Part shown: in pieces, positions 17,540-48,844 of the stretch | Layout: the number at the start of each line of letters is the position of its first letter | Position numbering within the stretch: the first letter of the stretch is position 1 | Source: Sphingomonadales bacterium CG_4_10_14_3_um_filter_58_15 | Lineage (GTDB): Bacteria; Pseudomonadota; Alphaproteobacteria; Sphingomonadales; Sphingomonadaceae | DNA length: 52,360 bases | Assembly (NCBI GenBank): GCA_002783865.1 | Contig: PFJE01000153.1 | Coordinates: forward strand, 1-52,360 | Reading direction: 5' to 3' | Notes under the pieces: model-generated | The model's input: only the letters and a program-made list of their open reading frames with translations | Told to the model about the DNA's origin: nothing | Database searches by the model: none | Position numbers and translations under genes: made by a program

Positions 17540-17594
17540 TTTGTATGTGTTGCTTACCAGAACGTCAATTGCTATTGTAAGCAACGCATACAAA
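17540..17594. promoter_or_regulatory. Paired type B operators in long inverted repeat
   Basis: Two type B sites face each other between the divergent O-demethylase and MetE-like genes. The arm 17540-17557 (TTTGTATGTGTTGCTTAC) pairs with 17577-17594 (GTAAGCAACGCATACAAA). All but one of the 18 positions match, with a 19-bp spacer. As single sites they are TGGTAAGCAACACATACAA (reverse strand, 17541-17559) and TTGTAAGCAACGCATACAA (17575-17593). A pair of dimers could bind and control both directions. Confidence 0.7.
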
Positions 17595-17617
17595 AAATAT
17601 CGAGATTGGGAGATCGG

Positions 17618-18739
17618 ATGGCCATTGCTACGACACATGTTGGAAGTCTGCCGAGGGGCGACGAACTGGTCCCGCTGTTGCTCGCCCGCGATCACGGCGA
17701 GCCTTATGATCAAGCTGAATTTGATGCAAAGGTTCAGGCCGCGATCTCGTCTGTCGTGGATCAGCAGATCGCAGCCGGCGTCACTTTTGTCAGCGACGGT
17801 GAACTCGGCAAGGTTGGCTATTCCACCTATATGACCGAGCGCCTGTCTGGTTTTGGCGGCGACGTCCCGCGCAAGCCCGCGCTGGATCTTGCACCGCTCC
17901 CCGAGTTTCGCAAGAAGCTGGGCGCGATCATGGGTGATCAGGAATTTGTCCGCGCGGCCTGCATATCAGAGGTCAAGCTGGTCGATCTCGAGCCCTGCCA
18001 CGAAGATATCCGCCGGTTTAAAAAGGCCACCGCGGGCAAGCCAACGCAAGGCTTTATGAATGCTGCTTCCCCCGGCCTGATTACCGCGTTTCAGCCGAAT
18101 CAATATTACCCGACGCACGAAGCCTATCTGGCCGATCTGGTCGATGCCATGCGTCCCGAATATGAGGCCATCGCAGAAGCCGGTTTCTATCTCCAGCTAG
18201 ACTGTCCCGATCTCGCGATGTCGCGCCACACAGGCTATCAGGACGCCAGCGAGGCAGATTTTCTGAAGATCGCCGAGGCCAATGTCGAGGCGTTGAACGC
18301 AGCGACCGCGAACATCCCAAAGGATAGATTGCGAATGCATATATGCTGGGGCAATTATGAAGGGCCGCATGATCACGACATTCCGCTGGAAAGCATTGTC
18401 GATATTATCCTGAAGGCGCGCCCCGACACCGTCCTGTTTGAGGCCGCCAACCCGCGGCACGAACATGAATGGAAGGTCTGGGCGGACGCAAATATTCCCG
18501 ATAGCAAAATATTGGCACCGGGTCTGATCGATACCTGTTCCAACTATGTCGAGCATCCCGAACTGATCGCCCAGCGTCTCGAGCATTTTATCGACATCGT
18601 CGGCGCGGACCGGGTCATCGCGTCGACCGATTGCGGCTTCGGTACCTTTGCCGGCTATGGCAAGATCGATCCGCAGGTCTGCTGGAAAAAGCTGAACGCA
18701 CTCAGAGAAGGCGCGGATATCGCCGCTGCTCGCATCTAG
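17618..18739 (+). CDS. MetE C-terminal-domain-like methyltransferase
   Basis: 373 residues of the UROD/MetE-like TIM barrel, equivalent to the catalytic half of cobalamin-independent methionine synthase, without the N-terminal half. The zinc ligands are all present: H241-x-C243 (RMHICWG), E275 (LFEAANPRHE) and C339 (STDCGFG). Members of this group include alkyl transfer enzymes such as epoxyalkane:coenzyme M transferase as well as core methionine synthases, so the acceptor is uncertain. It is divergent from the THF-dependent O-demethylase across paired operators. This suggests it uses 5-methyl-THF made by demethylation, or serves methyl transfer in the same pathway. ATG at 17618 preceded by GGGAG. 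Confidence 0.8.
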   Translation: MAIATTHVGSLPRGDELVPLLLARDHGEPYDQAEFDAKVQAAISSVVDQQIAAGVTFVSDGELGKVGYSTYMTERLSGFGGDVPRKPALDLAPLPEFRKKLGAIMGDQEFVRAACISEVKLVDLEPCHEDIRRFKKATAGKPTQGFMNAASPGLITAFQPNQYYPTHEAYLADLVDAMRPEYEAIAEAGFYLQLDCPDLAMSRHTGYQDASEADFLKIAEANVEALNAATANIPKDRLRMHICWGNYEGPHDHDIPLESIVDIILKARPDTVLFEAANPRHEHEWKVWADANIPDSKILAPGLIDTCSNYVEHPELIAQRLEHFIDIVGADRVIASTDCGFGTFAGYGKIDPQVCWKKLNALREGADIAAARI

Positions 18740-18761
18740 CGAGCGTCCAATCCCGCTGCCG

Positions 18762-22264: not shown

Positions 22265-23002
22265 ATGCGTTTCAAGGAAAAATCGGTCGTCATTCTGGGC
22301 GGCAATAGTGGTATCGGACTGGCCGCTGCCAGGGCCTTTCAGGCGGAAGGTGCAACGGTCGCGATAACCGGGCGCAATCAGGAGACACTGGACGCCGTCA
22401 GCGCAGAGACTGGCATGCTGGCGGTGCAATCAGACGTTAGTAATGTTGCGGATACAAAGGCTGCGCTCGCAAAAATTGCTGCGCAACATGGCGGCATCGA
22501 CATATTGTTCGCCAATGCAGGGGTCGGCGGTTTTGCAGCGATCCCCGAAGTCACCGAAATATTCTGGGACGGCGTCCATTCGGTAAACCTGCGCGGTATG
22601 TTTTTTGCGCTTCAGAATGCGCTGCCTCATATGACGGACGGCGGCAGCATTGTTGTCACCGGATCGATCGGATCGGTGATGGCACTGCCCGGCAATGCGA
22701 CTTACGCCGCTGCCAAGGCAGGACTGCGCGCAGTAGCCCGAATATTTGCGACCGAGCTTTTACCAAGGAAGATTCGGGTCAATATGGTTTCGCCCGGACC
22801 AACCGAGACGCCGATCGTTCACCGCGATACCAGCGCGGAAGAAGCAGAGGCCTTGCTGGCCATGATGCGCGAGGCGGTGCCGATGAAGCGGATGGGCGAG
22901 GCGGATGAAATAGCGAAGGCGGCGCTGTTTCTGGCATCGGAGGATGCCAGTTTCATCAATGGCGTCGATCTGTTTGTCGATGGCGGCTGCGTGGAACTTT
23001 AG
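22265..23002 (+). CDS. Short-chain dehydrogenase/reductase (classical SDR)
   Basis: 245 residues, cytoplasmic, NAD(P)-dependent. Cofactor motif GGNSGIG at 12-18, NAG at 84-86, catalytic S134, Y147 and K151 (YAAAK). The PG motif (VSPGPTETP) and the C-terminal VDGG are normal. Its length is that of FabG-like SDRs rather than the 300-residue C-alpha dehydrogenases elsewhere in the window. It follows the SnoaL-like gene by 2 bp and converges on folD with a 4-bp overlap. The substrate, probably a hydroxyl or keto side chain, is unknown. Confidence 0.82.
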   Translation: MRFKEKSVVILGGNSGIGLAAARAFQAEGATVAITGRNQETLDAVSAETGMLAVQSDVSNVADTKAALAKIAAQHGGIDILFANAGVGGFAAIPEVTEIFWDGVHSVNLRGMFFALQNALPHMTDGGSIVVTGSIGSVMALPGNATYAAAKAGLRAVARIFATELLPRKIRVNMVSPGPTETPIVHRDTSAEEAEALLAMMREAVPMKRMGEADEIAKAALFLASEDASFINGVDLFVDGGCVEL

Positions 23003-23871
23003 GCGAGCTCCAGTCCCTCAAATATCGCTTTATGCTCGGCCGATTTGATTGTATTTTCCAGCAGCATGGTGACGGTCATCGGACCAACACCGCCCGGGAC
23101 CGGCGTGATCGCCGATGCTTTTTTGGCAACGCCCTCGAAATCGACATCGCCGGCGATCGAGCCGTCGGCCAGCCGGTTGATGCCGACGTCGATGACCACG
23201 GCGCCCTGCTTGACCATCTGCGGCACGATCAGATTGGGGACCCCGGCAGCAACGACAAGAATATCGGCCAATATGGTGAATTGAGCCAGGTCGCGGGTCT
23301 TGGCATGGCAGATCGAAACCGTCGCATCGCGCGCCATCAGCATCAACGCCATCGGTTTGCCGACGATATTGCTGGCCCCAACCACGACGACATTCTGCCC
23401 CTCGATCGGGATATTTTCATGCTCGAGCAGCTTGACGACGCCAAAGGGCGTGCAGGGCGAAAATACGGTATTGCCGGTAACCAGACCGCCGACATTATAC
23501 AGGTGAAAGCCGTCAACGTCCTTTTCCACCGCGATGGTTTCCAATACCTGTGCCATATCGATCTGCGGGGGCAGGGGCAGCTGAACCAATATGCCATGGA
23601 CGTCTGGATTTGCGTTCAGTTCCACGATTCTGCCGAGCAGCTCGGCATTGCTGATTGTTTCCGGCAGATTTTGCGAAAAGGATTGGATCCCGACCGCTGC
23701 ACAGGCCTTGACCTTGCGGCCGACATAGACCGCAGATGCCGGATCATCGCCGATCAACAGCACGGCCAGCCCCGGCGTGACACCATGTTCCTTCAAGGCG
23801 CAGATGCGTTCTTTAAAACCTTCCCGCATGGCAGCAGCAAGGCTGCGGCCATCAATAATCCTGGCAGTCAT
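22999..23871 (-). CDS. folD: Methylene-THF dehydrogenase / methenyl-THF cyclohydrolase (FolD)
   Basis: Bifunctional enzyme that takes 5,10-methylene-THF to 10-formyl-THF. Here it would continue the oxidation of methyl carbon after MetF. About 290 residues. Typical signatures are VGRKVKAC with the catalytic lysine, GILVQLPLP and the nucleotide-binding VGASNIVGKP (family usually GRSNIVGKP), then PVPGGVGPMTV. Starts at 23871, 23874 and 23883 are all possible; 23871 is preferred for spacing from GGGG at 23878-23881. A type B operator ends 13-15 bp upstream, so this copy is under island control rather than purely housekeeping. Confidence 0.93.
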   Translation of the reverse strand: MTARIIDGRSLAAAMREGFKERICALKEHGVTPGLAVLLIGDDPASAVYVGRKVKACAAVGIQSFSQNLPETISNAELLGRIVELNANPDVHGILVQLPLPPQIDMAQVLETIAVEKDVDGFHLYNVGGLVTGNTVFSPCTPFGVVKLLEHENIPIEGQNVVVVGASNIVGKPMALMLMARDATVSICHAKTRDLAQFTILADILVVAAGVPNLIVPQMVKQGAVVIDVGINRLADGSIAGDVDFEGVAKKASAITPVPGGVGPMTVTMLLENTIKSAEHKAIFEGLELA

Positions 23872-23884: not shown

Positions 23885-23903
23885 TAGTATGTAATACATA
23901 CAA
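23885..23903. promoter_or_regulatory. Type B operator upstream of folD
   Basis: TAGTATGTAATACATACAA. The core 23887-23901 (GTATGTA-A-TACATAC) is a perfect 7+1+7 palindrome, the most symmetrical of the nine type B sites. It lies 13 bp upstream of the preferred folD start. Confidence 0.7.
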
Positions 23904-26461: not shown

Positions 26462-28919
26462 TCAGAATTTCTTCTTGACCGTCAGCGCCCATTCGCGAGG
26501 ACGCGCCGGCAGTGCCTTGTCGAAACCGCCGCCTGCGCCGAGCAGGTTGAACCGGCTGAGATAATAATATTCGTTGGTGATATTGGTCACTTCCAGCGAA
26601 ATATCCAGATCTTCGTCGGCATTTCTCCAGGTCAGCCGTCCATTAAGCGTCGTGAAGCTTGGCAAGAAGGTTCTGCCGCGCGGTGTGACCGACGTATTCG
26701 GGCCGGTATATTGCTTGGCCTGATAGGTGAAATCCAGACGCGGTGTGAGACTGCCGCTGTCGCCCAGTTCGGCCTTATATTGCATACCGAGATTGGCTTT
26801 CCATTTTGGAACGGTTGGCGGATCACTGGGATCGACACCGCCAGGATTGGTGCCAAATGGCGGTATAGCGGCGGCCGGATTGAGACTGCCTGCCTTGAGC
26901 TTCTGGTCGATGTAGCTCAGTGCGCCATCGATCAAGAAACCGTCTACCGGTTCCGCTGAAAGCTCCAGTTCGACGCCCTTGACTTCTGCATCACCCGCAT
27001 TGAAGCGAGCGGCACAAGGCGCCCCTGGGCAAGCATTTACCGGAATCTGCAGGTCGGTATAGTCATTGAGGAATACGGCGCCATTGAAACGCAGGCGATT
27101 GTCGAAGAGATCGCTCTTGAACCCGACTTCATAGGCGGTAATCCTTTTCCGGATTGAACGGGATCAACTGATCGGCATTGAACGGCCGCGGATTGGTGCC
27201 GCCGCCTTTGAAGCCGGTTGAAACCGAGGCATAGCCAAGAAAGGCATCGGAGAACCGATAGTCGACCGCTACCCGATAATCTAGCCGATCGGCGCTGTAG
27301 CTTGCGGTATTGCCGCTGAGCGCGCCGGGCGATCCGATTCCGTTGGCGGCACCAACCGGATCGACAAACCGGTTCACGGTGCCATCGAGGTTGAGCCGGA
27401 AATAGGTCTGATCCTTGGATTCATCCGTGTAGCGGAGGCCGACGTTTACGGTGAGCTGATCGGTGACTTCCCAACCGACATTGGCAAAGACGGCCTTGGC
27501 TTCCGCGCTGGTTGGATCCGGCTGACGAAATTGCAGCGGAAAGACCGACACATAACGGATGTCTTGGAAAGAATCATAGACCGAGTCCTGCTCGAAATAA
27601 TAGCCACCAAGCGTGACGTTCACGCCATCGGCTGGCTCCAGGTTCAGCCGCAGTTCCTGACTGAAGCTTTGGTTGGTCAGGAAGTTGCGACCGAAATTGG
27701 TGTGGATCGGTGTCAGATCGTCATCGGTGAAGAATTCGGTGTCGAACTCGCGATAGCCGGTGATCGAGGTGAGTTGCATCCAGTCGTTGAGTTCGATCTT
27801 CAGGTTGGCAGAAACGCCCCAGCCGGTATATTTGCTCTGGTCGGTCCCGGATGTCGCGGCGAGAACGGTTCCCGCTGCTCCCAGCGGATCTATAAAGACC
27901 CCCGGCGCCACTTCGAGTGCTGGCTGCCAGACAATGCCCGGCTGGCCAGTCGTGGAATAGTTACAGAATTTACCGCAGATGAAATTGTTGCTCAACGGCA
28001 CTCCGTTGTTGGCCGTATTGGGTGCCGGGACGGGACCGGTGTTGAGCAGGACTTCGCCGGCAATCGTGCGTTCGTCCTTTACATAGTCGGCGCTAACGGT
28101 CAGCTCGACGCGGTCGCTGGGAGTCCACTGCACGATACCGCGCAGGGCCTGATAGCCGACGCCGCCCAGCTTGCTGACCACACAGTCGCCGCCGCCTGCA
28201 TTGGTCGATGGAATACCGCTTGTAGGGTTTTCGCAGCCGTAATCGATCCGGTCGACATAACCGTCCTGTTCCTTGAACACACCGGAGATGCGCATCGCGA
28301 GATTTTCGGTCAGACCGAAATCTGCTGCGGCGCGCAGTCCAATGCGGTTGCGCGAACCGTAGGTCGCTTCGACAAATCCGCTGTTATCACCAGTCGGTTT
28401 GCGGGAGAAAAATTTGATGGCACCGCCGGCGGAGTTGCGGCCAGTCAGCGTTCCCTGCGGACCACGCAGGATTTCGACTCGGTCAACGTCGAGCAGATCG
28501 AATATTGCGCCGGTCAGCTGAGGATAATAGACATCATCGATATAGATGCCCACACCGGGTTCGAAAGCGGGGTTGAAGTCATTTTGGCCAACGCCGCGAA
28601 TGGACGCGGTGACCGATGGTCCGAAGGAAGCGCCTTGTGGGCGGATCGCCACGTTCGGTGCTGTGTCGGCAACTTGTTGCAGGTTGGTCTGGCTTTTCGC
28701 CTCGATCATTTCTCCGGTCACTGCGGTAATCGCCAGCGGAATATCCTGAAGATTTTGTTCCCGGAACTGCGCGGTGACGACAATGATGTTTTTGCCTTCG
28801 TCGGCAGAATCATTGGCGTTCTGAGCCATCGACGGTGCGCTTGACAATGCGACCCCGATGATTGCTGCATATGAAAGTGTTTTGAATTGCGCGAGCCGTG
28901 GCTGTATAACTTTTGACAT
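26462..28919 (-). pseudogene. TonB-dependent receptor, interrupted by a one-base frameshift
   Basis: Outer-membrane receptor for uptake of aromatic or dimeric substrates. The start is ATG 28919 with GGAGG 8 bp upstream. Signal peptide MSKVIQPRLAQFKTLSYAAI... ending SMAQ, then the plug (IIVVTAQFREQNLQDIPLAITAV; VDRVEILRGPQGTLTGRNSAGGAI) and a barrel with the C-terminal F (LTVKKKF). The first frame stops at 27129 after NPEKDYRL. The rest of the barrel continues in another frame. Removing one base from the TTTT run at 27145-27148 restores NPERITAYEVGFKSDL, the usual motif, and a protein of 818 residues. It could be a sequencing error or a true mutation. Terminator downstream, type B operator upstream. 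Confidence 0.8.
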
Positions 28920-28971: not shown

Positions 28972-28990
28972 TTGTGTGTAATACATACAA
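28972..28990. promoter_or_regulatory. Type B operator upstream of the TonB receptor
   Basis: TTGTGTGTAATACATACAA, 9+1+9 with a single mismatch between arms, 52 bp upstream of the receptor start and about 100 bp upstream of the MarR gene on the other strand. Confidence 0.7.
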
Positions 28991-29022: not shown

Positions 29023-29089
29023 GAAAGAATTTTGTTGAAAATTTTGTGCGATGTGGCTTTTTGGTATCAAAACGACTAAGCGCATCTGC

Positions 29090-29581
29090 ATGGAAAAAAA
29101 GGAAGAGTCCCAAATCGCGATGGATCAGGTCGAGATTCTCATTGATCTGTTGAAGGTCGCCACAAGAATCTCGCGCCCCATGCGCGACGGTGTAGCAGAC
29201 CCGGAAGATATCAGCGTCACCGAATTGCGAATTTTGATGGCGCTGGGCGGTGAGGGGGCCTTGGCGGGAATTGATCTCGCCGAACTTATGGCGATGCAGG
29301 CCATGAATGTCAGCCGGGCATTGAACAGTCTTGAGAAGATGGGCTTCGTCGAGCTGACCGACAACCAGAATAACCGGCGGCGCAAACCCTATCAATTGAG
29401 CAAGGCGGGCCGCGCCAAATGTGAACAGATGAGCGAAAGAATCGCGGAGGTCGCCAGATTCGTTTTCGGCAAACTCACTGATTCGGAACTGCGGCGGGTT
29501 GATAAGTTGCTGCGCAAAATAGATGGCCGGTTGATTGAATGGGAATCCCCACCTGATTTGCACCATGTGAAGCGGGCTTGA
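29090..29581 (+). CDS. MarR-family transcriptional regulator
   Basis: 163 residues from the ATG at 29090. Starts at 29051 (adds 13 residues) and 29120 (GGAAGAG upstream) are also possible, and no start has a clear best ribosome site. Winged-helix core: ISVTELRILMALGGEGALAGIDLAELMAMQAMNVSRALNSLEKMGFVEL, then the wing TDNQNNRRRKPYQLSKAGRA. Flanking helices form the dimer arm. MarR proteins usually repress neighbouring aromatic catabolism genes and are released by a phenolic ligand. It is divergent from the TonB receptor across a region holding one type A and one type B site. I think it reads type A, but type B cannot be excluded. Confidence 0.85.
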   Translation: MEKKEESQIAMDQVEILIDLLKVATRISRPMRDGVADPEDISVTELRILMALGGEGALAGIDLAELMAMQAMNVSRALNSLEKMGFVELTDNQNNRRRKPYQLSKAGRAKCEQMSERIAEVARFVFGKLTDSELRRVDKLLRKIDGRLIEWESPPDLHHVKRA

Positions 29582-29630: not shown

Positions 29631-30767
29631 CTAGCCAGTCTTTGGCAGCCGAAAAACATTCTCCGCATTGGTCTGCATCAGCATTTTCTTATGTTCATCG
29701 GAAATATCCATCCGGTCGTAGCCAGCGAGCTCGTCGGATGATTGCTGATAGGGATAGTCCATCGCATAGATCACGCGCTCCGGTCCCATTACCTCCATGC
29801 AGAATTTGATTGCCGGTTCCCAGCCGACGCCGCTGGTCGTGATCCAGATATTGTTCTGGAAATAATAGCTGACGGGATGCTTCAGAGTCACGGCCGGCTG
29901 TCCGCCGCGGAGTCCGGGAATGCCATCCGCGTTGCTCTGCATCCAGTCGAAGCGATAAAGATGCAGCGGCAGGCATTCGCCCATATGCCCGATCACCAGT
30001 CGCAGTTTCGGATATTTGTCAAAGGCACCGGAGAAGATCAGGCCCATAGTATGCAGCCAGACATCATGCGGAAACCCGCCGAGCGCACCGAACAGCCCAC
30101 GATCCTTATAATGCTGTCCATTATAAGGCGCGGTTGGATGAATGTAGAGCGCGGCGTCGAGTGCTTCCAACGCTTCCAGTATCGGCTCGTAAGCCGCTTC
30201 ATCCAGATAGTGTCCCTGAACGTGGGAATTGAGTACCGCGCCGTTGAGGCCGAGTCGGCTGTTAGCCCGTTCCAGTTCGAGCACGGATCCCTTCACATCG
30301 CGCGGATCAAAGGCAGCAAGGGCTGAAAACCGGTCGGGCCATTTGTTGCAGCTTTCCGCCGCAAGATCATTGGCTTGCCGTGCCAGTGCCGTGCCTTCGC
30401 TTTCTCGCACAACCTGAACGCCGGGCGAGGTCAGCAGCAGCAATTGCCGATCAATCCCATATTCGTCCATATGGGCGATCCGGCCTTCGCCTATGTCCTG
30501 CAACATGCCCTGCAATTTCGGCATGGAAGCGAACATGCCAGCCATACCGAGCGAGGCATCGTCCGGTGCATCGCCGCTTTCCAGATATTCCAGCTGCGCT
30601 TTCACCAGATCGGGAAAGGTCCATGCTTCTTCGGTAGCAATACGCTTGTAGGGGGCATCCCGATCTACTTCCCCTGCCGGCGGTGCCATGCCGATACGCT
30701 TGCGAACGCCCCGCTCCTCCGCATGGCCGCGCAGGCCTTTCTCGCTGCCGTCGGGTAGCAGCGTCAT
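29631..30767 (-). CDS. LigW-like metal-dependent decarboxylase (amidohydrolase family)
   Basis: 378 residues. The sequence follows 5-carboxyvanillate decarboxylase (LigW) and gamma-resorcylate decarboxylase: RIATEEAW with metal ligand E46, LLTSPGVQ, NSHVQGHYLDE, H210 (YIHPTAPY), H261 (GHMGECLPLHLYRFDWM), WEPAIKFCMEVMGPERVIYAMDYPYQ with D337. These are non-oxidative decarboxylases acting on ortho-carboxyphenols. About 35 extra N-terminal residues precede the family start, and W replaces the usual F after the EEA motif. It overlaps the upstream LdpA-like gene by 4 bp. The substrate may be 5-carboxyvanillate from biphenyl units or another carboxylated intermediate. Confidence 0.82.
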   Translation of the reverse strand: MTLLPDGSEKGLRGHAEERGVRKRIGMAPPAGEVDRDAPYKRIATEEAWTFPDLVKAQLEYLESGDAPDDASLGMAGMFASMPKLQGMLQDIGEGRIAHMDEYGIDRQLLLLTSPGVQVVRESEGTALARQANDLAAESCNKWPDRFSALAAFDPRDVKGSVLELERANSRLGLNGAVLNSHVQGHYLDEAAYEPILEALEALDAALYIHPTAPYNGQHYKDRGLFGALGGFPHDVWLHTMGLIFSGAFDKYPKLRLVIGHMGECLPLHLYRFDWMQSNADGIPGLRGGQPAVTLKHPVSYYFQNNIWITTSGVGWEPAIKFCMEVMGPERVIYAMDYPYQQSSDELAGYDRMDISDEHKKMLMQTNAENVFRLPKTG

Positions 30768-31465
30768 TGTTGCGGCTCCTGACCCATCAGCAGGGCCCCG
30801 AATTTGGGATGGGCGAAATGCATCGGAACGTCCTGCCGGCTCGGCCAGGTCCGGCGGATGTCCTGTTCATCGAGCAGATAATCCGGTCCGATCGGATTGT
30901 CGGGATAACATTCCGTCAGCGGCTGCAAATGGCTGACCGTCTTGGACCAGCCCGCCTCATAATCGCCCTGCCATTGCATCATATAGTCGAGCCGTTTGAT
31001 CTTCCAGACATCCCCTTCGCGGACATAGTCATTCTCGTAAATACCGGCTTCCATGAACTGCAGCGGCAGACCTTCCGGTTTCCATTGGCGCGACTCGTGG
31101 CTGCCACCGAACAGCATGCCGCGGAACCGGCCCTTGGCGGTTTGGCGGTCCGGGGCCACGGTGATGATGTCCTGCATCTGGAAATGGTCGAGCAGGAAGC
31201 CATCGACGGGGCCTTCGCCGCCATTTTCGAGGAACAGATTCTGGAACCAGGTGCCATAAAGGCGGAATATGCCTGCATGCCCCTTGAAGACGCCGGATAG
31301 AAAGGTAACTTCGCCATCTTCAGCGAATAATTGGGCAACATCGGCAGCCTTGTTGAAGTCGATATAATAGCCATAAGCCCAGTGCAACCGGCGGATGGCA
31401 TTGATATCCTCCAGTTCGCCGATACGGTTTTCCAATTTTTCCAGACGCACTTCAACATCAGACAT
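30764..31465 (-). CDS. Large NTF2-like protein, LdpA-like (copy B)
   Basis: 233 residues. N-terminal coiled coil (VRLEKLENRIGELEDI), then the NTF2-like domain with IRRLHWAYGYYID, GVFKGHAG, EAGIYENDYVREGDVWKIKRLDYM and GWSKT. It matches copies A and C across the whole length but differs in the central segment (MLFGGSHESRQWKPEGLPLQF), so the pocket probably differs. First gene of an operon with the LigW-like decarboxylase. It is divergent from an SDR/ALDH operon across a region with both operator types. Formaldehyde-lyase activity is inferred from LdpA. Confidence 0.7.
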   Translation of the reverse strand: MSDVEVRLEKLENRIGELEDINAIRRLHWAYGYYIDFNKAADVAQLFAEDGEVTFLSGVFKGHAGIFRLYGTWFQNLFLENGGEGPVDGFLLDHFQMQDIITVAPDRQTAKGRFRGMLFGGSHESRQWKPEGLPLQFMEAGIYENDYVREGDVWKIKRLDYMMQWQGDYEAGWSKTVSHLQPLTECYPDNPIGPDYLLDEQDIRRTWPSRQDVPMHFAHPKFGALLMGQEPQQ

Positions 31466-31487: not shown

Positions 31488-31512
31488 TTGTATGCAACAC
31501 TAACAAATGATA
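31488..31512. promoter_or_regulatory. Overlapping type B and type A operators
   Basis: The type B site TTGTATGCAACACTAACAA (31488-31506) overlaps the type A-like TAACAAATGATA (31501-31512, two mismatches) by six bases. It lies between the LdpA-like/LigW-like operon (start 31465) and the SDR/ALDH operon (start 31536), so two regulators could compete here. Confidence 0.6.
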
Positions 31513-32457: not shown

Positions 32458-33933
32458 ATGACACCCGGCAGCGTTCATATCAAAAATACCGACAAATTGT
32501 GGATCGGCGGCGAATGGGTGGCCCCCCATTCCAAACGCGATATCGAACTGGTCTCCCCCAACAGTGAAGAAGTGATAGGTTCCGTCGCCGAGGCCGATGA
32601 ATCGGATATGGATGCGGCGGTCGCGGCGGCGCGTTTTGCTTTTGACCACGGCCCGTGGGGTCAAATGCAGCCGGAAGAGCGGATAGCTTTGCTCAAGAAA
32701 ATCGCCGAGCATCTGCACGGACGAACCGATGAAATTGCCCGGGCCTGGACCATGCAAATGGGCGGGCTCGCCAGTTTCGCTGGACCGATGACCGCCGGCT
32801 CGACGATGAATTTCGACCAGATCATTGCCATGGCGGAAAAATTTGAATTTGTTGAGCAACGGCCTTCTCCGGTTGTGCACACCGCCCTGGTCGCACACGA
32901 GCCGGTGGGCGTCGTTGCCGCCATTGCGCCCTGGAACGGACCCTATGGTATCATGCTCAACAAAGTCGCCTATGCGCTTGCCGCCGGGTGCACGGTGATC
33001 ATGAAGCCGTCGCCGGAAACGCCGTTAGAGACATATATCATTGCCGAAGCAGCCGATGCGGCGGGCCTGCCAGCGGGCGTCGTCAATCTCGTCTGCGGCC
33101 ACCGCGATGCCAGCGACCATCTGGTGTGCAATCCGGGCGTCGACAAGGTCAGCTTCACCGGCTCGACCGTCGCCGGCAAACGCATCGCCAGCGTCTGCGG
33201 GGAACGGATCGCGCGTTGCACGCTCGAGTTGGGCGGCAAATCCGCGGCGATTATTGCGGATGATTTTGATATCAATGCAGCGGCGCAGATGTTGACCGGC
33301 ACGATCACGCTGATGAGCGGTCAGGTCTGTGCGATGCTCAGCCGCGTGCTCGTCCAGAAGGATCGTCATGATCAACTGGCCGAAGCGATTGCTGGCGAAA
33401 TGGAAAAAGTGGTCATCGGCCCATCCGATGATCCCGCGACCCAGCTCGGTCCGCTCGCCATGAAGCGCCAGCTTGCACGCGTTGAAATGTATATCGAGGA
33501 AGGCAGAAAATCCGCTGATCTCGTCACTGGCGGCGAGCGGCCCCGCCATTTAAATCGCGGCTATTTTATCGAACCGACCCTGTTTGCCAATGTCGACAAC
33601 CAGTCGCGGATTGCGCAGGAAGAGATTTTTGGTCCGGTGCTTTGCCTCATTCCCTTTGCGGATGAAGAGGATGCAATCCGGATAGCCAATGATTCCAGCT
33701 TTGGTTTGAACGGTTCGGTGCTGACCAATGATCCGGACACCGCCTATCGCATCGCCCGCCGCATACGGACCGGAGCCGTCGGGCAAAATGGTATGCGAAT
33801 GGACTTTGGCCTGCCATTTGGCGGGTTCAAGCAATCCGGCATCGGCCGCGAAGGCGGCATCGAAGGACTGCTTGCCTATCTCGAGACGAAGACCATCCTG
33901 CTTGATGGCGCACCTTCAAGCTTTTCGACTTGA
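32458..33933 (+). CDS. Aldehyde dehydrogenase
   Basis: 491 residues, NAD(P)-dependent ALDH superfamily. Catalytic C291 (SGQVCAML), general base E257 (LELGGKS), N160 (APWNGP, where most members have PWNFP) and K183 (IMKPS). The EIFGPVL and GFKQSGIGRE blocks are present. It oxidises an aldehyde to the acid. In the operon with a C-alpha dehydrogenase-like SDR the aldehyde may be a side-chain aldehyde of a lignin fragment. The G in place of F next to N160 may widen the substrate tunnel. ATG at 32458 after GGAACAGACAGC. Confidence 0.85.
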   Translation: MTPGSVHIKNTDKLWIGGEWVAPHSKRDIELVSPNSEEVIGSVAEADESDMDAAVAAARFAFDHGPWGQMQPEERIALLKKIAEHLHGRTDEIARAWTMQMGGLASFAGPMTAGSTMNFDQIIAMAEKFEFVEQRPSPVVHTALVAHEPVGVVAAIAPWNGPYGIMLNKVAYALAAGCTVIMKPSPETPLETYIIAEAADAAGLPAGVVNLVCGHRDASDHLVCNPGVDKVSFTGSTVAGKRIASVCGERIARCTLELGGKSAAIIADDFDINAAAQMLTGTITLMSGQVCAMLSRVLVQKDRHDQLAEAIAGEMEKVVIGPSDDPATQLGPLAMKRQLARVEMYIEEGRKSADLVTGGERPRHLNRGYFIEPTLFANVDNQSRIAQEEIFGPVLCLIPFADEEDAIRIANDSSFGLNGSVLTNDPDTAYRIARRIRTGAVGQNGMRMDFGLPFGGFKQSGIGREGGIEGLLAYLETKTILLDGAPSSFST

Positions 33934-33948: not shown

Positions 33949-33967
33949 TAGTAAGTAACGCATACAA
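33949..33967. promoter_or_regulatory. Type B operator upstream of the GST operon
   Basis: TAGTAAGTAACGCATACAA. Bases 33951-33967 differ at one position from the right-hand site at 17577-17593. It lies 29 bp before the first GST start. Confidence 0.65.
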
Positions 33968-33996: not shown

Positions 33997-34770
33997 ATGA
34001 ACGACGTTACCCTTTATCATTGGGAGCCCAATGCGAATTCGGGAAAACCGATGCTCGCATTGATGGAAAAAGACGTGGCTTTTGACAGCCATTATCTCGA
34101 CCTTCTGAATTTTGATCAGCATGACCCGAAATATCTGGCGATCAATCCGCAGGGTACGATCCCGGCGATGACCCATGGCGATCTGGTGTTGACCGAGTCG
34201 ACCGCAATCATGGAATATATCGATGAGGCGTTCGATGGCCCGCGCCTGATGCCGGAAGATGCAAAAGAGCAGTGGCGCATCCGCTGGTGGATGAAGTTCA
34301 TGGATCAGTGGCTGGCACCGAGCTTCTCGATGTTTGGCTGGAAATTTTTTGTCGGACCCAACGCCCGCGAACAGCGCGGCGAAGACGAGCTGGAGGCGGC
34401 GATCAACCGCATCCCGCTGCCGGAGCGACGGGTGGCTTGGCGCAAGGCAGTGTACGGCCTGTTCAGCGACGAAGAGATGGCGGAATCGGGTCGCCGGATT
34501 GGCCTTGGTATTCGCATGCTCGAGGAAGAATTGGGCAAGCGAGAATGGCTGGCGAGCGACAATTACAGCCTCGCCGATGTGAATGGCTTCAATCTGGCTT
34601 ATGCGCTGCCCTTGTCGCAGCCCGAGCTGTCCAACGACGAACTGACTCCCAATATCATGCGCTGGCTGCGTGCCATCTATGCCCGCCCGGCGACAAAAGC
34701 CTGCTGGGCGATGGGCAAGACCGACATGGTCAAGCGGGTCGACATATTAGAGCAGGATTATATCGCATGA
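33997..34770 (+). CDS. Glutathione S-transferase, LigF/BaeA-like beta-etherase subunit
   Basis: 257 residues, the LigF length. Thioredoxin-like N-domain with LYHWEPNANSGKP, where the N-S pair (residues 13-15) matches the LigF active-site region, then INPQGTIPAM with the cis-proline and TEST for the glutathione gamma-glutamyl group. The C-terminal helical domain continues to residue 250. Such enzymes break the beta-O-4 ether of the C-alpha ketone by glutathione attack. The next gene, overlapping by 4 bp, is a second and more divergent GST. That pairing resembles the heterodimeric beta-etherase BaeA/BaeB of Novosphingobium. Confidence 0.8.
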   Translation: MNDVTLYHWEPNANSGKPMLALMEKDVAFDSHYLDLLNFDQHDPKYLAINPQGTIPAMTHGDLVLTESTAIMEYIDEAFDGPRLMPEDAKEQWRIRWWMKFMDQWLAPSFSMFGWKFFVGPNAREQRGEDELEAAINRIPLPERRVAWRKAVYGLFSDEEMAESGRRIGLGIRMLEEELGKREWLASDNYSLADVNGFNLAYALPLSQPELSNDELTPNIMRWLRAIYARPATKACWAMGKTDMVKRVDILEQDYIA

Positions 34771-35525: not shown

Positions 35526-35548
35526 ATTCGCGAGTTTGGGAGAGACAC

Positions 35549-38351: not shown

Positions 38352-38370
38352 TTGTATGCAAAACACACAA
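38352..38370. promoter_or_regulatory. Type B operator upstream of ALDH
   Basis: TTGTATGCAAAACACACAA, 58 bp before the ALDH start at 38429 and 20 bp after the stop of the Nu-class GST. Confidence 0.6.
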
Positions 38371-38428
38371 TATTTGATAGCTAGCAACCATAATAAATTT
38401 AGGCATGATCCCAGGAAAGGATGCTCTT

Positions 38429-39940
38429 ATGAACGAGATGTCGACCATATCGCTGGCACAACACGAATATTCGGACGCCGCCAAAAAAGCATTGTCACGC
38501 AAGCCCTCGCTGTTCATCAACAATGAGTGGGTGAGTTCGTCGGCCGACAATAATCTTGCGGTTATCGACCCGTCGTCCGGCAAAGAAATCAGCCGGATTG
38601 TAGATGCGTCTGACGCCGACGTCGACAAGGCTGTTGCGGCTGCGCGCGCCGCTTTCGATGATGGCCGCTGGACCGGCCTGCCACCGATTGCGCGCGAACA
38701 GATGATCCATGCGCTCGCGGATCTGGTCGAGAAACATGCCGGTGAACTGGCCGAGCTGGAATCGATCGATAATGGCAAGCCGGTTGGCATGTCGTCCGCG
38801 GTCGATATTCCTGCTGCCGTCGGCATGCTGCACTATATGGCGGGCTGGGCGACAAAGCTCGGTGCTGATTCCATTTCGCCGATGTCGACACCAAATGGTG
38901 CGTTTCACAGCTATGTGCGCCGCGAGCCGGTTGGTGTTGCCGGCCTCATCGTTCCGTGGAACTTTCCGCTGTTGATGGCTGTCCTCAAGGTGGCTCCGGC
39001 AATGGCAGCAGGCTGTACGGTTGTCCTGAAGCCGGCGGAGCAGACCTCTCTAACGGCCTTGCGCCTTGCCGATCTGATCGCCGAAGCTGGCTTTCCGGCG
39101 GGTGTTATCAACGTCATTACCGGCAACGGTCACACGGCAGGTGATCGTCTGGTACGGCATCCGGATGTCGACAAGATCGCCTTCACCGGCTCTACCGAAG
39201 TTGGTAAGATCATCAATCGCACGGCAACCGACACGCTGAAACGCGTCACGCTGGAACTGGGAGGAAAATCTCCCGTGATCGTGTTGCCGGACGTCGATGT
39301 GGCGCAAGTTGCTCCCGGCGCGGCCGGGGCGATTTTCTTCAACGCCGGGCAGGTCTGCATCGCTGGTTCACGGCTTTATGCTCATAGTTCAATCTTCGAC
39401 AAGGTCGTTGAAGGCATTGCCGAGACCGCCGCATTCTGGGCACCACGTCCTTCTCTCGATCCCGCAGCCCATATGGGGCCACTGGTCTCGGAAGAGCAAT
39501 ATACGCGTGTCATGGACTATATCGACCAGGGCAAAAAGGCCGGAGCATCGGTTGCCATGGGTGGCGATTGTCCGACGGCGGATGGCTATTATGTCAACCC
39601 GACGGTGCTGGTCGATGTGAAACCGGACATGAGCGTTGTTCGCGAGGAAATTTTCGGACCGGTTGTCTGCGCACAGCGTTTTGACGATCTGGATGAGGTG
39701 GCGAAGCAGGCCAATGACAGTTGCTTCGGCCTGGCCGCCAGCGTCTGGACCAAAGATGTGTCCGCCATGCACCAAATGTGCGCAAAGTTGAAAGCGGGCA
39801 CGGTCTGGGGTAATTGCCACGGCGTGATCGATCCGGCCTTGCCATTTGGCGGCTATAAGCAATCAGGGCTTGGACGGGAGCAGGGGCGTCAGGGTGTCGA
39901 GGCCTATACCGAACTCAAGTCCGTTATCATCCAGCTCTGA
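38429..39940 (+). CDS. Aldehyde dehydrogenase (phenylacetaldehyde/betaine-aldehyde type)
   Basis: 503 residues from the ATG at 38429, chosen because AAGGA sits 7-8 bp upstream; another ATG at 38405 lacks this. Catalytic C310 (FFNAGQVCIAG), E276 (LELGGKS), N178 (PWNFP) and K201 (KPAEQT). The C-terminal FGGYKQSGLGREQG is intact. It oxidises an aldehyde with NAD(P). Possible substrates are vanillin-type aldehydes from stilbene cleavage or a C3-chain aldehyde from hydroxypropiovanillone. First gene of a separate transcription unit with its own type B operator. Confidence 0.87.
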   Translation: MNEMSTISLAQHEYSDAAKKALSRKPSLFINNEWVSSSADNNLAVIDPSSGKEISRIVDASDADVDKAVAAARAAFDDGRWTGLPPIAREQMIHALADLVEKHAGELAELESIDNGKPVGMSSAVDIPAAVGMLHYMAGWATKLGADSISPMSTPNGAFHSYVRREPVGVAGLIVPWNFPLLMAVLKVAPAMAAGCTVVLKPAEQTSLTALRLADLIAEAGFPAGVINVITGNGHTAGDRLVRHPDVDKIAFTGSTEVGKIINRTATDTLKRVTLELGGKSPVIVLPDVDVAQVAPGAAGAIFFNAGQVCIAGSRLYAHSSIFDKVVEGIAETAAFWAPRPSLDPAAHMGPLVSEEQYTRVMDYIDQGKKAGASVAMGGDCPTADGYYVNPTVLVDVKPDMSVVREEIFGPVVCAQRFDDLDEVAKQANDSCFGLAASVWTKDVSAMHQMCAKLKAGTVWGNCHGVIDPALPFGGYKQSGLGREQGRQGVEAYTELKSVIIQL

Positions 39941-42489: not shown

Positions 42490-43227
42490 ATGGCCAGCTT
42501 CATTCTGATCCACGGCTCCTGGCATGGCGGTTGGTGTTTTGACGGCATCAAGCGGCTGCTTGAGGAGCAGGGACACGAAGTGATCGCGCCCGATCTGCCC
42601 GGAATGGACGGCAATGAGCAAGAGCTGCGTGCCGTTACCCTTCAGGGCTGGGCCGATTTCGCGGCAGGATTATGCGAAAGGGCCGCGCAAAAGCCGGTGA
42701 TACTGGTCGGCCATAGTCGCGGCGGGCTGGTCGTCAGTCAGGCAGCGGAAACCGCACCGGATGCGATCGACGCGCTCGTCTATATTTGCGCTATGATGTT
42801 GCCCGACGGCATGTCGCGCGCGCAGTTCAAGCAACTGGAAGGGCCGAACCCCGCCTTTGATACCATAATCTCTCCAGTTGCCAATGGTGCCGGCACGGTT
42901 GTCGATGGGGCAGGGGGGCGAGCTATTTTCGCCCAGCTTTCGCCGAAAGATCTAGTCAACGAGGCGATGCAACGACTTGCGATCGAGCCGCATGGTCCGC
43001 GATCCGAACCGCTAAGACTGACCGCAGGGCGCTTCGGTTCGCTGCCAAGAACCTATATCGAATGTACCGAAGACAGAACCATCCCGATCGCCAGTCAGCG
43101 CCGGATGCAGACCCTGGTGCCGGGCGCCGATATCGTTACGCTCGACACCGACCACTCTCCCTTTCTGTCGCGACCGGAAGAGCTGACGGCGGCATTGATA
43201 GCCGCCGCCGACAAAGTCAGTTCTTGA
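42490..43227 (+). CDS. Alpha/beta hydrolase (methylesterase-like)
   Basis: 245 residues. Resembles the plant methylesterase/hydroxynitrile-lyase type of alpha/beta hydrolase: [14 protein letters not shown] at the oxyanion region, nucleophile S76 (GHSRGG), D195 (ECTEDRTIP) and H222 (DTDHSPF). A small-ester hydrolase is the simplest guess, such as aromatic methyl or acyl esters in lignin. Last in the ALDH-to-GST run, 48 bp after the GST, with no good ribosome site visible. Its 3' end overlaps the 3' end of purU by 11 bp on the opposite strand. Confidence 0.8.
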
Positions 43228-44077
43228 AAACAACCGTCTTGTGTCCGTTCAGAAACACACGGTCCGCCAAATGATAATGCACCGCTTGCGCCAATACCCG
43301 GCGTTCGATGTCGCGGCCCTTGCTCACCAGCGCCTCTGGCGTGTCGGCGTGGCTGATCGCTTCCACATCCTGATGGATGATCGGACCTTCATCTAGATCA
43401 GCGGTGACATAATGCGCGGTGGCGCCAATCATCTTGACGCCGCGTGCGTGCGCCTGATGATATGGCTTGGCACCCTTGAACCCGGGCAGGAAGCTGTGAT
43501 GAATATTGATGCAGCGGCCCGACAGGAAAGTGGCGAGATCGTCCGATAGAATCTGCATATAGCGGGCAAGCACCACCAGTTCCGCCCCGCTTTCGGTCAC
43601 CAGCGCTTTGATCTGCGCTTCTTGCTGTGGTTTGGTGTCCTTGGTAATTGGCAGATAATGAAAAGGAACATCCCCGATCAATGATATTTGCAAGGCTTCG
43701 CGCGGATGGTTGCAGATGATTCCCACCACATCCATCGGCAGCTCACCGATCCGATGCCGGTATAGCAGATCGCCCAGACAATGGTCGAATTTGGAGACCA
43801 TCATCATAACCTTGGGGCGGTCGTCGCTCGCCCGCAACTTCCACTGCATCTGCTTTTCCCTGGCGAAGATGTGGAGCGCGTCGGAAATGGATTGAGGATC
43901 AGAGCTGGCCGCCATCTCGAAGACAACGCGCATGAAGAAATGCCCGGTTTCGCTATCATTGAACTGCCGCGAATCGATAATATTGCCGCCATTGTCGGCC
44001 AATATTTTTGCAACCCGTGCGACCAGCCCGGGCTGATCCGTACAGGACAATGTTAGAATTTGCCGGTTCGTTGACAT
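43217..44077 (-). CDS. purU: Formyltetrahydrofolate deformylase (PurU)
   Basis: Hydrolyses 10-formyl-THF to formate and THF. 286 residues from the ATG at 44077 (GGGAGAG upstream). N-terminal ACT domain ([26 protein letters not shown]), then the formyltransferase-like domain with [20 protein letters not shown] and the catalytic D in [13 protein letters not shown]. It is divergent from the O-demethylase-metF operon with a type B operator between. This suggests it regenerates THF for demethylation after MetF and FolD, rather than serving only purine balance. No LigH-type formate-THF ligase is in the window. Confidence 0.93.
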
Positions 44078-44100: not shown

Positions 44101-44119
44101 TCGTTTGTGTTACATACAA
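44101..44119. promoter_or_regulatory. Type B operator between purU and the O-demethylase
   Basis: TCGTTTGTGTTACATACAA. The right half is perfect and the left half is degenerate, and the centre is T instead of A. It lies 23 bp from the purU start and 46 bp from the demethylase start. Confidence 0.55.
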
Positions 44120-44156: not shown

Positions 44157-45566
<1,410 letters not shown>

Positions 45567-45598: not shown

Positions 45599-46474
45599 AT
45601 GTCTGAGCATCCCATCCATCCCAATTGGGAGCGTGCGCCTGTCGGTGTCACCGAAGGCTATTCGCTGGAGATTACCGCCAAGGATATCGACTCCTTGCGC
45701 GATGCTGCTCCTATGATTGCCGACGAAACACCGGTCGCGGTTACGTTTCTGCCGGGTGAAGAACAGGGAGCGCGTGTCGCTGCTGCGGTTGCGGTGCGCG
45801 AGCTGGGCTTTGAACCGATGCCGCATTTTTCGGCGCGGCGGATAGCATCGAGTGACGAGTTTGAAGACTATCTGCAGGCGGTGGTTCGCGATGCCGGCGT
45901 GCGCCGCTGTTTTCTTGTCGCCGGCGATCCGCCGGAACCGGAGGGGCCTTATTTCGACAGCTCGGCGCTGATCGAAAGTGGAGCCTTTGAGCGGGCAGGG
46001 ATCACGGCGATTGGTATCGGTGGTCATCCCGAAGGCCACCCGGTCATGACCAGACAGCAATCCTGGGAGGTGATCGACAAGAAAATTGGCGAGATCGAGC
46101 GCAGGGGCATGGCGCCTCTGATCGTCACCCAATTCGGATTTGATCCCGATACCGTTCTTTTCTGGCTGCAGGAGCTGCGGTCGCGCGGCGTCGAGGTTCC
46201 CGTACGCATCGGCATTCCCGGACCAGCCGGCATCAAGCGCCTGTTGCGCTATGCCAAATATTGCGGTGTTGGCGCATCCGCCAGCGTGTTGGCAAAATAT
46301 GGGATTTCTTTGACCAAATTGATCGGAAGCGCCGGGCCCGACAAGCTGGTTGACCGTTTTGCCGCCGAACTGGGCAGCGAACACGGACGGGTGCGCCTGC
46401 ATTTCTATCCTTTTGGTGGCATCGACAAGACCGTCGAATGGATCAACGATTATAATCACCGGCACGGCCTCTAG
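45599..46474 (+). CDS. metF: Methylenetetrahydrofolate reductase (MetF)
   Basis: 291 residues, FAD-dependent TIM barrel of the MTHFR family. It acts here in the oxidising sense, 5-methyl-THF to 5,10-methylene-THF, so methyl groups removed by the demethylase can go on to FolD and PurU. Visible family parts are VAVTFLPGEEQ near the N-terminus, FLVAGDPPEPEGP, IGIGGHPEGHP, IVTQFGFDPD and PVRIGIPGPAGIKRLLRYAK. The presence of metF next to an O-demethylase is known from SYK-6. The sequence is the short divergent type found beside demethylases rather than a typical E. coli-like MetF. Confidence 0.88.
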   Translation: MSEHPIHPNWERAPVGVTEGYSLEITAKDIDSLRDAAPMIADETPVAVTFLPGEEQGARVAAAVAVRELGFEPMPHFSARRIASSDEFEDYLQAVVRDAGVRRCFLVAGDPPEPEGPYFDSSALIESGAFERAGITAIGIGGHPEGHPVMTRQQSWEVIDKKIGEIERRGMAPLIVTQFGFDPDTVLFWLQELRSRGVEVPVRIGIPGPAGIKRLLRYAKYCGVGASASVLAKYGISLTKLIGSAGPDKLVDRFAAELGSEHGRVRLHFYPFGGIDKTVEWINDYNHRHGL

Positions 46475-46903: not shown

Positions 46904-46934
46904 GGCGAATTCTCCTGAATAGAACCTCTATTCC

Positions 46935-47837
46935 CTATATGGCGTGTTTGGCAGCTTTCCTTGCGTCATCATAGCTCTTGCGGCGGAACTTCTCAAACTC
47001 GACGCGTTTTTCATAGCCCGGATCATTCGGATAATCTTTGAAGTCACTCATGTAAGTATCGAATAAGGCTGCCAGTTCTTCCTTGTGCTCTGGATGCGAG
47101 AAAATATACATCCGGTTGTCGCGCATGCCATCCAGAACGCGCTCGCCGATCACGTCGGGTTCCATCCCGAATTCATGAAACTCTGCCAGCCGTTTCACAT
47201 TTTCGTGGTCCACCGGCTTGGCGCCCTCCATCAATTCCGCGGGGCGAATATCATCGCTGGCATAGATATAGGATTTTACCAATGCCGGGCAAAGCACCGA
47301 CACGCCTATGCGATGCTTGGCAAGGCTGCAGCGCAACGATTCGCTCAAGCCGCGGACCGCGAATTTCGTGGTGTTATAGATACCCGGTGACCCGCTGGCC
47401 TGCCAGCCCGCCATCGACGAGGTGTTGACAATATAGCCACCATTGCCCGCTTCGATCATCCGCGGGACAAAGGTCATGACGCCGTTGATTGGTCCGTTCA
47501 AATTTACGCCCATCACCCAGTCCCAATCCGAATAGCTCGAATCTTCTATGGTTTGGAACAGGTTTATACCCGCGTTGTTGAAGAGCAAAGAAACCGGACC
47601 AAATTGCGCTTCTACCTTGTCGGCCGCCTCGGCCATGGCTTCGCGGCTGGAGACATCCACCTGCACGCCCATCACCTCATTATTGTCGAGCGTTGCGAGC
47701 GCCTTGTCGATCGCATCCTGCCGGATGTCGGCGATCGCGACCTTGCAGCCTTCTGCGAGCAGCGCCCGGACAATGCCGATGCCGACGCCATTGGCGCCGC
47801 CGGTAACAAAGGCGGTTCTACCTGCAAAATCGATCAT
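46935..47837 (-). CDS. SDR, LigD/LigN-type C-alpha dehydrogenase candidate
   Basis: 300 residues. TGGANGVG cofactor motif (12-19), NNAG (87-90), S140/S141, Y154 and K158 (YNTTK), then a tail to residue 300 as in LigD/LigL/LigN/LigO. ADIRQD after the second strand (D37) suggests NAD rather than NADP. WDWVMGVNLNGPINGVMTFVPRMI closely follows the LigD block as I recall it. It probably oxidises one enantiomer of the benzylic alcohol of a beta-aryl ether. It overlaps the upstream SDR gene by 4 bp; the pair may split stereoisomers. Confidence 0.8.
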   Translation of the reverse strand: MIDFAGRTAFVTGGANGVGIGIVRALLAEGCKVAIADIRQDAIDKALATLDNNEVMGVQVDVSSREAMAEAADKVEAQFGPVSLLFNNAGINLFQTIEDSSYSDWDWVMGVNLNGPINGVMTFVPRMIEAGNGGYIVNTSSMAGWQASGSPGIYNTTKFAVRGLSESLRCSLAKHRIGVSVLCPALVKSYIYASDDIRPAELMEGAKPVDHENVKRLAEFHEFGMEPDVIGERVLDGMRDNRMYIFSHPEHKEELAALFDTYMSDFKDYPNDPGYEKRVEFEKFRRKSYDDARKAAKHAI

Positions 47838-48742
47838 GCTTTCAACTCCTTCTGGCGGGCAATTTCATCGGCCCAGATCGGGCTGTTGAAGAGCATCGCA
47901 AATGTCTGCTTATATTCTTCGTTCTCGGGCAGCTTGGCCGGAACCGATGCGATCATGGCATTGGCGCGGTCGGTGACGCCGCCGAGAAATTCGCTGTGGG
48001 TCAGGATATAGAGCTCGTCATCCAATATGCCGCGCAGCACCCGTTCGCCGACTTCTTCCTTTGTTTGAAACAGGTGCAAAAGATTGCCGCCGTCCTGGCG
48101 TCTCTTGTCCGCTTCGGCATAGCCGGTTTCGGACAGCTCATCCGGTCGCGTCTTGCCGGCCTCAGCGATATTGGACTGCACCGCACCTGGACAGAAGGCG
48201 GAGCAGATCACGCCGCGGCTTTCCAGTTCGGGCCGCATGCACTCCATCATCGTGACCAGCGCCGCTTTGCCGGTTGAATAGATCGTGGTTCCGCCAACCG
48301 GAACAATCCCCGACATCGAGCAGGTGTTGATGATATGGCCGCCTTCGCCGTGCGAGAGGATGCGCGGCAGCATCGTTGTGACACCATTGATGGCACCGCC
48401 GACATTGACATTCATCACCCAGTCCCAATCGGCAAAGGTTGCCAGCTCGGTCGGGCCCACAACCGCCACACCGGCGTTGTTGCACAGGATATGGATCTTG
48501 CCGAATCGTTCTTCGGCAGTATCCGCCGCCTTCGCAAAGTCCTCGCGATCGGTCACATCCAGCTTGATCGCCAATATCTTGTCGGGCGATCCGAGCTCCT
48601 CTTTTGCTTCTGCCAGGTGATCATCGCGAATATCGGCAACGACGACATTCATGCCCGTGCCAAGCAGCGCCTTGGCGATGCCAAGCCCGATGCCGCTCGC
48701 GCCGCCGGTTACAAAGGCAGTTTTGCCTCGTAGATTCTGCAT
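47834..48742 (-). CDS. SDR, LigD/LigO-type C-alpha dehydrogenase candidate
   Basis: 302 residues from the ATG at 48742 (GAGAGGGA upstream); the longer frame to 48844 would cover the type B operator. TGGASGIG (12-19), D38 in ADIRDD, NNAG (88-91), S142, Y155 and K159 (YSTGK), and a long C-terminal tail. It is closely similar in plan to the next SDR (46935-47837), to which it is coupled by a 4-bp overlap. Two tandem enzymes of this type would fit the two enantiomers of a C-alpha alcohol, as in SYK-6. Confidence 0.8.
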   Translation of the reverse strand: MQNLRGKTAFVTGGASGIGLGIAKALLGTGMNVVVADIRDDHLAEAKEELGSPDKILAIKLDVTDREDFAKAADTAEERFGKIHILCNNAGVAVVGPTELATFADWDWVMNVNVGGAINGVTTMLPRILSHGEGGHIINTCSMSGIVPVGGTTIYSTGKAALVTMMECMRPELESRGVICSAFCPGAVQSNIAEAGKTRPDELSETGYAEADKRRQDGGNLLHLFQTKEEVGERVLRGILDDELYILTHSEFLGGVTDRANAMIASVPAKLPENEEYKQTFAMLFNSPIWADEIARQKELKA

Positions 48743-48825
48743 TTTGGAATTTCCCTCTCTCAAACTTGGCCGGTTGTTTCTGTTCCATTGCTCACAAAAG
48801 ACTGGACAACCGTGCTCAAACAATA

Positions 48826-48844
48826 TTGTATCTAACACATACAA
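48826..48844. promoter_or_regulatory. Type B operator between SDR and MFS operons
   Basis: TTGTATCTAACACATACAA, strongly palindromic, in the divergent region 48743-48899: 83 bp from the SDR start and 55 bp from the transporter start. Confidence 0.65.

Follow-up and report, generated by a model that had tools for sequence, protein, structure and literature searches.

Catabolic genes and predicted operators of the window

The stretch analysed here (hereafter, the window) comprises 52,360 nucleotides from Sphingomonadales bacterium CG_4_10_14_3_um_filter_58_15 and opens its contig (C148:1-52360), so that contig numbering runs on from window numbering; the genome assembly consists of 2,689,483 bases in 180 contigs and is 89% complete. 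The window holds nine copies of a 19-bp element at promoters of O-demethylase, folate, uptake and dimer-cleavage genes, which would place all these functions under one shared control, as originally predicted. Here, we present evidence that these elements are very probably operators of a MarR-type repressor orthologous to DesR of Sphingobium sp. SYK-6, encoded on the same contig.

Two of the operators, identified by pattern scan, form a tandem pair 34 bp apart (17541..17559, minus strand, and 17575..17593, plus strand) in the divergent promoter between desA (16070..17473, minus) and a gene for a MetE-like methyltransferase (17618..18739, plus). The desA product matches the NCBIfam model of the tetrahydrofolate (THF)-dependent syringate O-demethylase (NF047633; 861 bits against a cut-off of 800) and exceeds the LigM cut-off as well (616 bits, cut-off 580). 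A further operator (23885..23903, plus) marks the promoter of folD (22999..23838, minus), with its centre 56 bp from the folD start, and another (28972..28990, plus) separates the gene of a TonB-dependent receptor (27129..28919, minus) from that of the window's own MarR protein, denoted MarR-A (29051..29581, plus). The operator at 31488..31506 (plus) is shared by a short-chain dehydrogenase (SDR) gene that starts at 31542, with an aldehyde dehydrogenase gene behind it (32458..33933, plus), and by the gene of an NTF2/SnoaL-fold protein (30764..31465, minus), next to which a LigW/LigW2-like 5-carboxyvanillate decarboxylase is encoded (29631..30767, minus). The PDB relatives of the NTF2/SnoaL-fold protein are named only SnoaL-like, and we take it to be a member of the PcfL/LdpA-like family; this putative assignment rests on the SnoaL/NTF2 fold, the LigW similarity of the neighbour and a published account (PMC12997858).

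The remaining window operators are located upstream of a glutathione S-transferase (GST) gene (operator 33949..33967, plus; gene 33997..34770, plus), which is followed by a pyrroloquinoline quinone (PQQ) dehydrogenase gene; upstream of a second aldehyde dehydrogenase gene (38352..38370, plus; gene 38405..39940, plus); between purU (43217..44062, minus), encoding a formyltetrahydrofolate deformylase that scores above the TIGR00655 cut-off, and ligM (operator 44101..44119, minus); and between an SDR gene (47834..48790, minus) and that of a major facilitator superfamily (MFS) transporter (48900..50318, plus; operator 48826..48844, plus). The ligM gene (44166..45566, plus) encodes a vanillate/3-O-methylgallate O-demethylase (NF047885, 820 bits against 580; PDB 5x1i and 5tl4) and is followed by a gene for a MetF-like methylene-THF reductase (45599..46474, plus). 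Past the window, one operator lies between a stilbene dioxygenase gene and desR (C148:57167-57185), and one upstream of genes for glutathione-dependent formaldehyde dehydrogenase (GS-FDH), S-formylglutathione hydrolase and formate dehydrogenase (C148:63597-63615).

The pattern on which the original prediction was built, TTGTATGYAAYRCATACAA, was scanned at up to 3 mismatches and yielded 14 matches in the window, corresponding to precisely the nine predicted positions, five of which match on both strands because the site is a near-palindrome; in 100 dinucleotide shuffles, the mean number of matches was 0.02 and the maximum 1. Two details of the predicted consensus had to be corrected, namely, that the central base, in the orientation of the prediction, is A in all nine sites rather than in eight, and that the right end varies, the site at 44101 ending in ACGA instead of ACAA. 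Genome-wide, the same pattern occurs at 11 distinct positions, i.e., the nine window sites, C148:63597, which is 11 kb beyond the window end, and C96:31435 (0 and 1 for the reversed-pattern control). The generalised palindromic motif, TTGTWWGYNNNRCWWACAA, for which we define a clear site as one with at most one mismatch, also occurs at 11 positions in this genome, all of them on C148 (the nine, 57167 and 63597), against 0 for the reversed control. At up to two mismatches, 16 matches stand against 18 in the control, and in the absence of an excess, weaker sites were left uncounted. The site on the other contig, upstream of a second TonB receptor (C96:31435-31453; L013 9436-9454), has two mismatches and is a candidate only, because two-mismatch matches to the generalised motif equal the background. 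All 11 sites of C148 lie upstream of assigned start codons, with 28-111 bp between operator centre and start; their intergenic status hinges on these assignments, and some open reading frames (ORFs) with earlier TTG starts would span a site. The genome scan proposed as a test of the prediction thus returned clear sites that are upstream of starts, clustered on one contig and, as described below, recurrent at orthologous promoters elsewhere.

The DesR orthologue and its probable operators across genomes

DesR has been shown experimentally to be a MarR-type repressor in SYK-6 (Araki et al. 2019, PMC6888825). According to the available part of that account, its binding sites are 15-bp inverted repeats at desB, ligM and desR, vanillate or syringate releases it from them, and its regulon comprises three promoters, those of ligM-metF-ligH, desB and desR. 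Written with their flanks, the three repeats (IR-B, IR-M and IR-R) show the same 19-bp motif as the window, with the 15-bp core in common. A matrix constructed from the nine window sites assigns scores of 16.2-19.7 to the three SYK-6 cores, compared with 17.5-24.6 for its own nine sites, and the site between purU and ligM (44101) is identical to IR-M with flanks in 18 of 19 positions. The original prediction, which dubbed the sites 'type B' operators of a 'hidden' regulon, found no obvious regulator; the motif is, however, the DesR operator described for SYK-6 in PMC6888825, and the gene of a DesR orthologue lies 4.8 kb after the window ends, so that these labels are superseded.

To obtain the reference sequence of SYK-6 DesR, two published operators were used to scan 94 genomes from a single genus: nine genomes had a match and two had exactly one of each, including G349 (the same genome as G144, with identical coordinates), which we infer to be SYK-6 and in which desR sits behind IR-R. 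The desR gene of our contig (C148:57204-57677, plus; L012:4844-5317) was assigned by orthology to this reference, with 66% identity over 140 residues, and by the NCBIfam equivalog NF053777, named for the Saro_0803 family, in which the contig DesR scores 247.6 bits and SYK-6 DesR 237.1 (cut-off 200). The gene neighbourhood is shared as well: in both genomes, desR is divergent from a stilbene dioxygenase gene (the adjoining dioxygenases are 78% identical) and has an MFS transporter gene downstream (48% identity between the transporters). The best PDB match of the contig dioxygenase is 5j53, presumably the structure of NOV1. Saro_0803 itself, from Novosphingobium aromaticivorans, is the regulator of the stilbene dioxygenase gene nov1, from which it is divergent, and responds to resveratrol (PMC10046596). 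Thus, it resembles both DesR proteins in family membership and in gene arrangement but differs from them in its effector, in nov1 as the studied target and in a different inverted repeat; no one-carbon regulon figures in the accessible part of that account (PMC10046596).

The desR promoter of the contig carries its own operator, at C148:57167, and of the 30 top-scoring among 38 orthologues, 25 likewise have an operator no more than 320 bp ahead of the gene, compared with 0 of 600 stretches for the reversed control. In the presumed recognition helix, the residues MDRATTMAI are kept in 27 of these 30 proteins. Among 298 genomes of the family, 43 were scored as encoding DesR (G067, at 32% identity, was not). 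Of these, 41 contain at least three sites, as opposed to 0 of the 255 genomes without DesR; the Fisher value of 2e-48 ignores relatedness and the joint travel of DesR with its targets. In 25 genomes selected, from 67 loci, because they encode a MarR-A relative, the sites counted on one strand total 267, versus 7 in the reversed control.

The operators also recur at orthologous promoters. For this comparison, the contig proteins served as queries against five large regions, chosen because they hold sites, in which the operator is present at 33 of the 42 genes orthologous to operator genes versus 4 of 70 other genes; with inclusion of small fetched regions, which are biased because they were chosen around sites, the counts are 45 of 57 versus 5 of 82. 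A Fisher value for these counts is only a guide, given that the regions were site-selected and divergent pairs share a site. Orthologous promoters with an operator include those of ligM (5/5: G235, G298, G306, G313 and SYK-6), the stilbene dioxygenase gene (5/5), desR (5/6), purU (4/4), the TonB receptor gene and the SDR genes at 31542 and 47834 (3/3 each), the PcfL/LdpA-like and MFS genes (3/4 each), MarR-A (2/2), the aldehyde dehydrogenase gene at 38405, folD and GS-FDH (2/4 each), desA (1/1), the metE-like gene (1/2) and GST (1/3). Of the genomes compared, G306 is that of Chakrabartia godavariana and G313 that of Novosphingobium lentum, both of them cultured and rich in sites. The formate dehydrogenase gene fdsG is particularly instructive. 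In our contig, it lies behind GS-FDH under the operator at 63597; in G235:C24 and G298:C155, where it is not behind GS-FDH in the fetched stretch, it has an operator of its own; and in G306 and SYK-6, it is without its own operator. In this case, the operator seems to go with the function. LigA/DesB-like ORFs of G306 and G298, recognised by eye, carry an operator.

The desA gene may have entered or left the circuit in different lineages. As reported in the available parts of two papers, DesR does not bind desA in SYK-6 (PMC6888825), where desA is regulated by the IclR-type repressor DesX (PMC12314914). No operator was found at SYK-6 desA, in agreement with the reported lack of DesR binding there. 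Of 36 genomes searched for desA, 35 had a match, and among the best 30, taken as loci, nine promoters have a site at up to one mismatch, including the window's own and those of its five best-scoring relatives; the reversed control gave none at up to two mismatches.

The SYK-6-like genome (G349:C1:1305124-1305142, L256) and a relative (G350:C1:1218312-1218330) contain a fourth candidate for a DesR site, which has two mismatches. In G349, it lies about 29 bp before an ORF that resembles, by eye, an aldehyde dehydrogenase, and it is absent from the published sites in the available part of PMC6888825.

Alternative regulators and the weight of evidence

The original prediction had pointed to the window's MarR protein as a regulator to be tested, and we, too, first favoured MarR-A on the basis of locus counts, a view abandoned once SYK-6 DesR had been identified and the genome counts set side by side. 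The case for MarR-A as the cognate repressor is not trivial. There is an operator in its own promoter; the motif occurs in 52 of 57 sphingomonad MarR-A loci (L088-L144, up to 20 kb each), mostly about 200 bp before MarR-A, and in 0 of 10 more distant ones, with 3 matches for the reversed control over all 67; and three or more sites are found in 12 of the 13 genomes whose MarR-A relative reaches 38% identity or more. Nevertheless, MarR-A is only 19% identical to DesR over 105 residues, and sites do not track it rather than DesR across the 298 genomes: 29 of 285 genomes without a relative at the 38% level have three or more sites. Moreover, G117 (MarR-A relative of 46% identity, 87% complete) and G034 (32%, 95% complete) have neither DesR nor sites; conversely, G235 encodes DesR and carries seven sites, all on one contig, with MarR-A matches that do not go below E 1.6e-4, and SYK-6 has only a 31% relative although the motif is bound by DesR there (PMC6888825). 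DesR and MarR-A largely co-occur, the genomes that separate them being few, and what is decisive for DesR is this published binding to the motif (PMC6888825). We therefore regard MarR-A as a very improbable repressor of the nine sites and as a probable target of the regulon. A combined scheme, in which DesR and MarR-A bind the same operators and convey two inputs, e.g., vanillate or syringate and a dimer-derived compound, to one gene set, is somewhat easier to entertain but still unlikely. A DesR-type site does lie between MarR-A and the TonB receptor gene here, in G306 and in G313, and G304 combines many sites and a MarR-A relative (L098) with no DesR match; however, there is no separate half-site pattern, a site of the TTGTTAG type is also found at desR in G232, where the closest MarR-A relative is only 36% identical, and the low identity between the two proteins speaks against a common target. 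Finally, the near-palindromic, A/T-rich motif could be seen as a dispersed repeat or a promoter element without a dedicated regulator. This notion is hardly credible in the face of 11 clear sites at catabolic, transport or regulator promoters of one contig, the conservation of their positions in diverged genomes and the lack of any DesR-free genome with three or more.

Several observations weigh against the assignment to DesR. At one mismatch, the generalised motif misses IR-B, which requires two, and recovers just 2 of the 3 SYK-6 sites proven to bind DesR. No operator was found at 5 of the 30 desR promoters, nor at desR of G235, and 12 of the 57 orthologues of operator genes are without a site (2 of 3 for GST; 2 of 4 each for folD, GS-FDH and the aldehyde dehydrogenase). 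Co-occurrence is confounded because DesR and the catabolic genes travel together, and a loose MarR-A set (E<1e-13) performs comparably, with three or more sites in 37 of 40 genomes versus 4 of 258 without such a relative, the latter four being left unexplained by MarR-A. Two genomes break the pattern: G304, a metagenome-assembled genome that may be incomplete, has 13 sites and no DesR at E<=1e-20, and G057 encodes a DesR (53% identity) yet has one site. Overlap of operators with promoter-like sequences, seen at 10 of 16 starts and assessed without a control, carries no evidential weight. Taking all this into account, we assign a probability of roughly 0.87 to the interpretation that the nine sites are operators of the DesR-type repressor encoded at 57204-57677, where the operators and the orthologue are observed and repression releasable by vanillate or syringate is expected from SYK-6.

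The predicted regulon and its surroundings

By analogy with SYK-6, a DesR dimer would occupy the 19-bp inverted repeat that overlaps or adjoins each promoter, thereby silencing the unit; vanillate or syringate, once accumulated, would bind DesR and cause it to leave the operators, so that all units, desR included, switch on together. The regulon would then encompass lignin dimer cleavage, aldehyde oxidation, O-demethylation by LigM and DesA, and uptake, along with the fate of the released carbon: methyl groups would be removed through MetF, FolD and PurU to formate, formaldehyde would be oxidised via the glutathione route, and formate would be oxidised to CO2. The operators at 31488 and 63597 make sense as a shared control, given that, in the available parts of two reports, PcfL and LdpA of N. 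aromaticivorans release formaldehyde, which is oxidised by a glutathione-dependent dehydrogenase (PMC11323797, PMC12997858). No operator was found at the protocatechuate ring-cleavage genes (window 161-9312), as would be predicted for genes controlled by the LysR protein encoded at 2878; the LysR-type counterpart in SYK-6 is LigR (PMC6888825).

Compared with SYK-6, the predicted regulon shares the orthologous MarR-type regulator, the operator core, the operators at ligM and desR and the dioxygenase-desR neighbourhood, but differs in size, with 11 operators on one contig versus three promoters. Unlike its SYK-6 counterpart, it reaches desA, folD, purU, the GS-FDH, S-formylglutathione hydrolase and formate dehydrogenase genes, the PcfL/LdpA-LigW-like unit, aldehyde dehydrogenases, GST and the TonB and MFS transport genes; desA, in particular, has two operators here and is unbound by DesR in SYK-6. 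Regulator, operator and mechanism are already known, and what we describe is a larger variant of the known DesR regulon. A regulon of this size and content was not found in the accessible portions of the DesR literature searched (PMC6888825, PMC10866074, PMC10046596 and PMC12314914), and the novelty, within the scope of that search, is limited to these two aspects.

More generally, it seems reasonably likely that DesR acts in many Sphingomonadaceae as a master switch for methoxyl carbon, such that sensing of vanillate or syringate opens dimer cleavage, O-demethylation and every one-carbon exit, with operators following function when operons are rearranged and desA captured or lost by lineage. 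If so, this would explain how lignin degraders match the load of methyl groups and formaldehyde to its disposal, a balance that is relevant to engineering such organisms for the production of chemicals from lignin. What began as an anonymous motif can thereby be tested as a regulon: its repressor has a name, its inducers can be predicted, and 11 operators are predicted in this genome, alongside 267 sites in 25 relatives. Furthermore, one NCBIfam equivalog accommodates both Saro_0803, which senses resveratrol, and DesR, which senses vanillate, making the true ligand range of this family directly testable.

DesR and its sites were not found in the five genomes of the same genus that were searched (G089, G153, G203, G243 and G278), so the island is patchily distributed. 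A recent foreign origin of the contig is not clearly supported by composition: its GC content is 0.573, while 39 loci on other contigs, some of which overlap, average 0.572, and the dinucleotide distances of five 15-kb contig pieces are 42, 30, 36, 23 and 17, compared with 12-37 for 20 random sets. Near the contig end, there is a transposase-like ORF with helix-turn-helix and rve domains (C148:74223-75020), and the last 373 bases have a GC content of 0.448.

A third MarR gene of the contig (C148:63116-63547; L012:10756-11187) adjoins ferulate-like genes. Its product was considered as a Saro_0803-type regulator and rejected, with 60 bits to the model against the cut-off of 200; judging by position, we presume it to be FerC-like. 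The likeness to FerC, a MarR-type regulator of ferulate genes, consists in this location beside ferulate-like genes, and we do not propose it for the operators described here. The island further encodes two PQQ dehydrogenases that include a cytochrome c domain (window 18762-21113 and 35276-37654) and three SnoaL/NTF2-fold proteins (15335-16045, 30764-31465 and 50355-51098), the last two 41% identical, a trio that possibly includes several deformylating lyases.

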